Assembly: GCA_014859655.1 (NCBI GenBank)
Contig: JACUTT010000022.1
Location: forward strand, 1 to 33,359
Length of the DNA stretch: 33,359 bases
Reading direction: 5' to 3'
DNA from: Campylobacterales bacterium
GTDB lineage: Bacteria > Campylobacterota > Campylobacteria > Campylobacterales > Sulfurimonadaceae
Under the pieces are notes generated by a model. It saw only the letters and a program-made list of their open reading frames with translations. It made no database searches and was not told the DNA's origin. Shown here one piece after another: positions 9,219-26,639 of this stretch. The position numbers were made by a program, and so were the translations under genes. The first letter of the stretch is position 1, and each line of letters opens with the position of its first letter.

Positions 9219-9230
9219 AAAATAACTAAG

Positions 9231-9495
9231 GGGCACCTCTAAAAACCCCAACTGCCTTCAGAGGGAAAAAGAGAGAAATCTTGCACACAATTTTCTATCA
9301 CCATAGCTACGGCTATGATTCAAGAAAAGTTCTGCACAATCTCATCTCTCTTTTCCCCTCCCTGCGGGCGATAGACAGATGCCCACACTCTGCGTTGCCC
9401 CTTCTTGCCTTAGCTATGGCTAGGGCTTCAAAGGGTCGCCTTGATTGTGAGCATCTCTCTATCGCTGAAGGCAACTGGGGTTTTTAGAGGTGCCC
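9231..9495. mobile_element. MITE-like element, long form (copy B, 265 bp)
   Basis: Terminal inverted repeats of 30 bp are seen: the left end reads gggcacctctaaaaacccc then aactgccttca, the right end is its complement with two mismatches. The element is flanked by a perfect 4-bp target duplication TAAG (9227-9230 and 9496-9499). It is made of a left unit (9231-9383, homologous to copy C) and a right unit (9384-9495, homologous to copy A). Inside lies a hairpin CATAGC-tacg-GCTATG (9303-9318). There is no transposase ORF, so mobilisation in trans is inferred. It ends 25 bp before the GTG start at 9521. Confidence 0.85.
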
Positions 9496-9520
9496 TAAGA
9501 TTTAAGCCCAAGGAGATTGT

Positions 9521-10057
9521 GTGCACAAAAGAGCTCTGTCACGCCGCACTGTGCTCGGCGGTTCTGTTGCTGTGGGTATTTCTCTGGCCTTGTGGCTAAG
9601 CGAGAAAAACACAAGCCCCCGCCTTTACGCAAAGGATGTACAGGTCTTGCTGCACGCTGCCTACCAGCTTTTTCCGCATTCAAAACTCGGCCCCGGCGCG
9701 GTCGATCTTCATATATCTGCTTATTTGAGTTATGTCCTTCAAGACGAGAGAATCATGGAAGAAGAGAGGCATTATCTCTTAAAAGGCGCCAGCTGGCTTG
9801 AGGAGAGCGCCTTTGAGAACTACGGCAAAAGCTTTTTGAGTCTTGCTATAGATGAGAAAGAGAGTCTTCTGCATAAAGTCTCGCGGGATAGATGGGGAGA
9901 AAACTTTGTCTATAGAGTTCTGAACTATATACTTGAGGCTCTTTTGTCTGCTCCTGTTTACGGTTCAAATGCCAAGGAGATAGGATGGAAGTGGCTTGAG
10001 CACAATCCCGGTTTCCCCCAGCCATCGACAAAGAAGGAGATTAACTATGATCTATGA
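9521..10057 (+). CDS. Gluconate 2-dehydrogenase subunit 3-like Tat-exported protein
   Basis: The 178-aa protein starts with a twin-arginine signal (LSRRTVLGG, then a hydrophobic stretch to about residue 26) and the rest matches the small subunit 3 family that accompanies membrane-associated GMC dehydrogenases, with ending WLEHNPGFPQP. It likely helps export or fold the partner oxidoreductase, which itself has no signal peptide and would be carried as a hitchhiker. GTG start at 9521 is supported by AAGGAG 5 bases upstream. Its last 11 bp overlap the GMC gene. Function is inferred from family and neighbour. Confidence 0.8.
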   Translation: MHKRALSRRTVLGGSVAVGISLALWLSEKNTSPRLYAKDVQVLLHAAYQLFPHSKLGPGAVDLHISAYLSYVLQDERIMEEERHYLLKGASWLEESAFENYGKSFLSLAIDEKESLLHKVSRDRWGENFVYRVLNYILEALLSAPVYGSNAKEIGWKWLEHNPGFPQPSTKKEINYDL

Positions 10058-26263: not shown

Positions 26264-26433
26264 GTCAAAAGCCTCTTAGTTTCTGCGGTGATTATAACAC
26301 TTATTGGACTTGATTTTAAAATGATGGCGGGGATTGCTTGCGTAGTATTAAAGAGCAGAAGATTTAGCCGATGTTTTTTGATTGATTATTTAAACGTTAT
26401 GCTATACAATGCCTTAAATCCGTTAACAAATAA

Positions 26434-26620
26434 GGGCACCTCTAAAAACCCCAACTGCCTTCAGAAGGAAAAAGAGAGATGAGATTGTGCAGAACTTTTC
26501 TTGCACCCCAAGGGTATTTGTCCCTTCGGTCGGGCAAATCATAGCCGTAGCTATGGTGATAGAAAATTGTGTGCAAGATTTCTCTTTTTTTCCCTCCCTT
26601 CGGGCGATAAAGAGATGCCC
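26434..26620. mobile_element. MITE-like element, short form with inverted core (copy C, 187 bp)
   Basis: The left arm 26434-26479 matches copy B 9231-9276 at 45 of 46 positions. The right arm (26580-26620) is collinear with 9346-9383. The element is flanked by perfect 4-bp duplications ATAA (26430-26433 and 26621-26624). Between the arms the core 26479-26580 matches copy B only when reverse-complemented, with an extra 33 bp. Its right terminus gataaagagatgccc differs from that of copies A and B but shares the reverse-complement end GGGCATCTCT. The terminal inverted match is therefore short (GGGCAYCTCT). No ORF. It ends 19 bp before the nitroreductase start. Confidence 0.85.
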
Positions 26621-26639
26621 ATAAGTGAAAGGAACGCTG

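Follow-up and report, generated by a model that had tools for sequence, protein, structure and literature searches.

Copies of the repeat in the window

The window, that is, the whole 33,359-nt stretch of DNA analyzed here, carries copies of a repeat that we designate A, B and C. Their features are listed below (TIR, terminal inverted repeat; TSD, target-site duplication).

1–92, + strand: copy A, the right end (arm 2 and TIR) of a further copy, at the contig edge and followed by TTTA
9227–9230, no strand: TSD TAAG on the left of B (right copy at 9496–9499)
9231–9495, + strand: copy B, a full-length element of 265 bp (filed below as a MITE) with ends GGGCACCTCT...AGAGGTGCCC; covariance model score of 229.9 bits; the sole copy found with arm 1 inverted
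9262–9276, + strand: left partner of the basal inverted repeat of arm 1 in B, AGGGAAAAAGAGAGA; its innermost 10 bp pair perfectly with the right partner
9277–9344, − strand: core of arm 1 in B, whose orientation is opposite to that in all other copies (68/68 reverse-complement identity to the core of C minus its insert; orientation test)
9345–9361, + strand: right partner of the basal inverted repeat of arm 1 in B, TCTCTCTTTTCCCCTCC
9366–9464 (approximate limits), + strand: arm 2 of B, the second long hairpin, in standard orientation
9496–9499, no strand: TSD TAAG on the right of B
26430–26433, no strand: TSD ATAA on the left of C (right copy at 26621–26624)
26434–26620, + strand: copy C, a 187-bp short form made of the left TIR, arm 1 and the junction hairpin; on the right it stops at a cryptic internal terminus, AGAGATGCCC
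26480–26580, + strand: arm-1 core of C, in standard orientation
26504–26536, + strand: 33-nt apical insert in arm 1 of C, CACCCCAAGGGTATTTGTCCCTTCGGTCGGGCA

A gene starts at about position 9521, immediately downstream of copy B. The orthologous intergenic site in a congeneric genome (G004) is devoid of the element, which indicates that B is recent. Neither B nor C contains a transposase gene or, in the list of open reading frames, any frame of at least 90 aa.

The left 46 nt of B and C are collinear and identical at 45 positions, as the initial annotation had reported. Its claim that the cores of the two copies match solely as reverse complements was likewise borne out: after removal of the 33-nt insert from the 101-nt core of C (26480–26580), the reverse complement of the 68-nt core of B (9277–9344) is identical to it at 68 of 68 positions. 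Read in the same orientation, the cores agree at 16 of 68 positions, the maximum over 2000 shuffles being 32 of 68. The core coordinates proposed initially were correct to within one or two bases. An inverted repeat, AGAGGGAAAAAGAGAGA versus GGAGGGGAAAAGAGAGA, surrounds the core; it is complementary at 15 of 17 positions, with 10 perfect base pairs adjoining the core. The 33-nt apical insert recurs in the majority of the arm-1 copies that this genome contains, and some relatives have it in a varied form. Since a copy in standard orientation that lacks this insert exists (L011), B can be read as a simple single flip of the ancestral form of ~266 nt.

Element family and candidate autonomous partner

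We analyzed the stretches around element copies in the genome that contains the window (2.17 Mb, 85 contigs); the named records in which the element occurs are Campylobacterales MAGs. Full-length copies measure ~266 bp and end in TIRs of 10 to 31 bp (GGGCACCTCT...AGAGGTGCCC). Most of them are flanked by a TSD of exactly 4 bp, never longer, that is A/T-rich and mainly TTAA, TTTA, TAAA or TATA. The end sequence GGGCACCTCTAAAAA, allowing at most one mismatch, has 63 matches per strand in this genome.

A candidate for the autonomous partner was located through transposase loci placed using Pfam. Among the PF01609 loci of related genomes, one relative (G049) carries a 1252-bp IS on its contig C9 (L164 1016–2267) whose ends, GGGCATCTCTAAAAAC... 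and ...GTTTTTAGAGATGCCC, are the same as those of the repeat. Its 342-aa transposase matches PF01609 and PF05598, as well as the NCBIfam model NF033581 (IS5 family) with an E-value of 4.8e-82. Related IS copies with the same ends are found in three other genomes (G109, G034 and G010), and a decayed, internally deleted IS copy with stops in the transposase lies in this genome (C63, about 14.4–14.9 kb; L396 1444–1883). A pattern search of this genome for a pair of identical ends at IS length returned none. Given that the G049 IS, its relatives and the decayed copy share the ends of the repeat, the latter fits best among the MITEs of IS5-family elements, the G049 IS being its probable autonomous partner; transposition of the MITE would take place in trans through the IS5-type enzyme of that partner.

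Several abridged forms accompany the full-length copies. A second short form ending at AGAGATGCCC, like copy C, is located on contig C46 of this genome (L057; 184 bp, TSD ATAA). Miniatures of 39 to 56 bp consist of the two ends alone, several of them with intact 4-bp duplications (C23:26306-26357, C41:7625-7679, C74:19158-19209 and C70:25075-25113, among others, in this genome). Their existence suggests that ~10 bp of end sequence is enough for mobilization. We also observed solo tips of 13 to 15 bp (GGGCACCTCTAAA...) that stand after TTTA/TAAA-like target sequence and have no partner end in the vicinity (for example, L036, L041, L052, L076, L077, L081 and L121-L129). A second, divergent subfamily of the element is present in this genome as well (C54:5490-5755, C51:29430-29718 and C85:23549-23837). 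Finally, the contig pairs C34/C35 and C39/C40 of this genome share the same element junctions, perhaps reflecting strain variation or duplicated haplotypes.

Fold, distribution and orientation of arm 1

The inverted core corresponds to hairpin arm 1 of a three-way-junction fold. In the consensus structure, the TIR stem carries two long hairpins (arms 1 and 2) and a small junction hairpin. Across the fold alignment, which comprises 55 distinct full-length copies, standard pairs occupy 96.2% of the cells, two-sided changes occur in 62 of 96 pairs, and the covariation score reaches 0.346, as compared to 0.130 for shuffles and no more than 0.10 for slid controls. Folded as single-stranded DNA, copy B yields a z-score of −12.4. 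Of 298 Campylobacterota genomes, 46 contain the element according to the covariance model; they belong to several families of the order, and the length is nearly constant at 265–270 nt.

An RNA-gene reading of the element is not backed by Rfam: scanning the window recovered a tRNA alone and no family match to the element, and scanning five copies returned nothing but weak miRNA-like noise below the gathering score. Testing wobble pairs for signs that one strand is transcribed, we counted 51 G-U and 39 A-C occurrences (p = 0.25), which gives no clear indication of selection on a transcribed strand; arm 1 alone leans to G-U (23 versus 9, p = 0.02). Our literature search found nothing on this repeat in Sulfurovum, Sulfurimonas or Campylobacter. 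We suggest, tentatively and as a possibility short of a probable one, that this structured mobile element is wide in Campylobacterota and that its three-way-junction fold is itself selected, template switching maintaining the stems and occasionally flipping an arm, as in copy B. The selected role may be, for example, that of an extruded DNA structure aiding transposition or of a processed RNA.

To establish the orientation of the arms, each arm was compared, as is and reverse complemented, with those of the other copies in a set drawn from many genera that comprised 130 full-length copies, 129 of them distinct. Arm 1 is flipped in a single one of the 130, copy B, and arm 2 in none. No flip was seen either at 16 further loci of the same genus, five of which repeat copies already counted; two of the 16 (L440 and L446) came out of the automatic comparison with hardly any margin, solely because they had been entered from the other end, and visual inspection classed both as standard. 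Counting orientation among the copies of this genome, a check proposed in the initial annotation, gave 21 standard copies versus 1 flipped for the left ends readable into arm 1. A pattern scan of ~85,000 genomes, this genome excluded, produced 51 matches to the standard pattern and 0 to the matched flipped-junction pattern. The queries used for sampling were in standard orientation; nonetheless, the same model found B with a score of 229.9 bits, which argues that flipped copies were not missed wholesale. Since B alone is flipped, the orientation of C, the copy flagged by the initial annotation, is the standard one, and B is the derived, flipped copy.

These counts bear directly on the proposal that the element acts as a small switch or undergoes enzyme-driven inversion. 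That a site-specific recombinase flips arm 1 in a programmed ON/OFF manner could be argued from the inverted repeats that flank the segment and from the location of B immediately before the start of a gene (about 9521). However, flipped copies amount to just 1 of 130, and the flanking repeats are a hairpin stem whose sequence varies among genera with pairing kept, not a conserved recombination site. Ten proteins of the window, including the neighbors of B and C, were scanned for recombinase domains and have none. A switch needs repeated flips, and none were seen. We thus rejected this very improbable reading on the basis of the orientation census and the neighboring genes.

The divergent subfamilies present side by side in this genome (L432, L440 and L446) also bring to mind two ancient subfamilies with opposite arm-1 orientations, a scenario to which we give practically no credence. 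All other subfamilies and genera, every divergent subfamily included, are in standard orientation, and the core of B shows no divergence from standard copies (68/68), which refutes two such subfamilies for the sampled genomes. The outcome comes near to the one that the initial annotation had named as refuting repeated inversion, a single ancient rearrangement: the rearrangement is single, but recent instead of ancient.

Origin of the inversion and known systems

We hold with good confidence that B and C are non-autonomous IS5-type MITEs with hairpin arms and that arm 1 of B was inverted once, most likely by a template switch in an extruded hairpin. The family would have spread first; in B, the stretch enclosed by the short perfect basal repeats of arm 1 would then have inverted once, the insertion of B having taken place before or after this event. 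A template switch during replication, or an equivalent RecA-independent exchange, inside the extruded hairpin would flip the spacer and leave both stem repeats intact. After the flip the arm still pairs into a hairpin, so that the overall fold was kept.

The inverted repeats that form the base of arm 1 are perfect over 10 bp, and the breakpoints of the flip fall inside this perfect portion, a placement broadly compatible with the recombination across internal inverted repeats envisaged in the initial annotation. Template switching is reported to homogenize the arms of inverted repeats and to invert spacers, inversions having been seen only with arms of more than 9 bp (PMC8604942), a length that the repeats of B exceed. 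It has also been proposed as the origin and upkeep of hairpin stems (PMC8794818), and hairpin-flanked inversions are well known from chloroplast spacers (PMC2903610). In arm 2 of another copy (L230, G031:C307), 11 changes cluster within 24 nt and match the opposite strand of the same hairpin with perfect complementarity; L005, on contig C10 of this genome, has a similar, smaller tract in its arm 2; such tracts look as expected from template-switch homogenization. Speaking against a template switch, the 68-nt spacer far exceeds the 2-5-nt spacers of PMC8604942, a study that selected for coding sequence. From the breakpoints and tracts, we infer template switching over other short-repeat inversion routes as the cause of the flip.

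One such route is gene conversion, or homologous exchange, with an oppositely oriented copy, the crossovers lying inside the stem repeats of arm 1. Dozens of near-identical arm-1 copies occur in both orientations along the genome, the inverted repeat at the arm base provides short homology, and an inverted arm transferred from another copy would be identical in sequence. We nevertheless regard this route as unlikely: homology in the wrong orientation at the switch points spans ~10–17 bp, which is short for RecA-dependent exchange, and the sole other insert-free copy known here (L011) is truncated. Rather more doubtful still is an assembly artifact in which the assembler joined the core of B the wrong way round, as might be suspected of a fragmented, short-read-like assembly with near-duplicate contigs and contigs that often end in this element. 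B lies inside a 33-kb contig with its TSDs intact, its junction repeats are merely 10 bp perfect, below usual assembly k-mers, and its junction sequences are absent from other copies. The flip of B is best read as a one-off event in which a hairpin arm of a single MITE copy was inverted, probably during replication.

Copy B offers a clean natural example of the inversion of a hairpin arm without loss of the fold, in a multi-copy family with a clear ancestral state. We judge the family itself more valuable than the flip, as it is order-wide, ~265–270 nt long, covarying, absent from Rfam and has an identified IS5-type partner. It also offers a direct test of whether covariation in mobile repeats results from selection on structure or is a by-product of template-switch mutation.

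The closest likeness to the flip is the template-switch spacer inversion described in PMC8604942, where Schofield et al. 1992 is cited for spacer inversion in E. coli. In both cases, the segment is bounded by perfect inverted repeats of ~10 bp, the stem repeats are unchanged and arms are homogenized, here in sister copies. The segment here differs in measuring 68 nt and lying inside a mobile element, and its mechanism is read from sequence. In the minute inversions of the chloroplast trnH-psbA spacer (PMC2903610, which cites Kelchner and Wendel 1996 for hairpin-associated minute inversions), the loop between stem repeats is likewise found in both orientations among related sequences; flips recur often among species there, whereas they concern one copy in about 130 here. 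As for the element, it resembles the bacterial MITEs Correia/NEMIS, RUP, ERIC and CIR (PMC2229807) in being small, non-coding and strongly folded, with TIRs and target duplications, and CIR elements have two arms as well. Unlike these, it is longer (~266 bp), with a 4-bp TSD, IS5-type ends and a fold that covaries strongly throughout an order. Its terminal ~10–15 bp and target preference match those of IS5-family IS (NF033581), of which the decayed copy in this genome has the same ends; the MITE, by contrast, lacks a transposase and has an interior that bears no relation to the IS.
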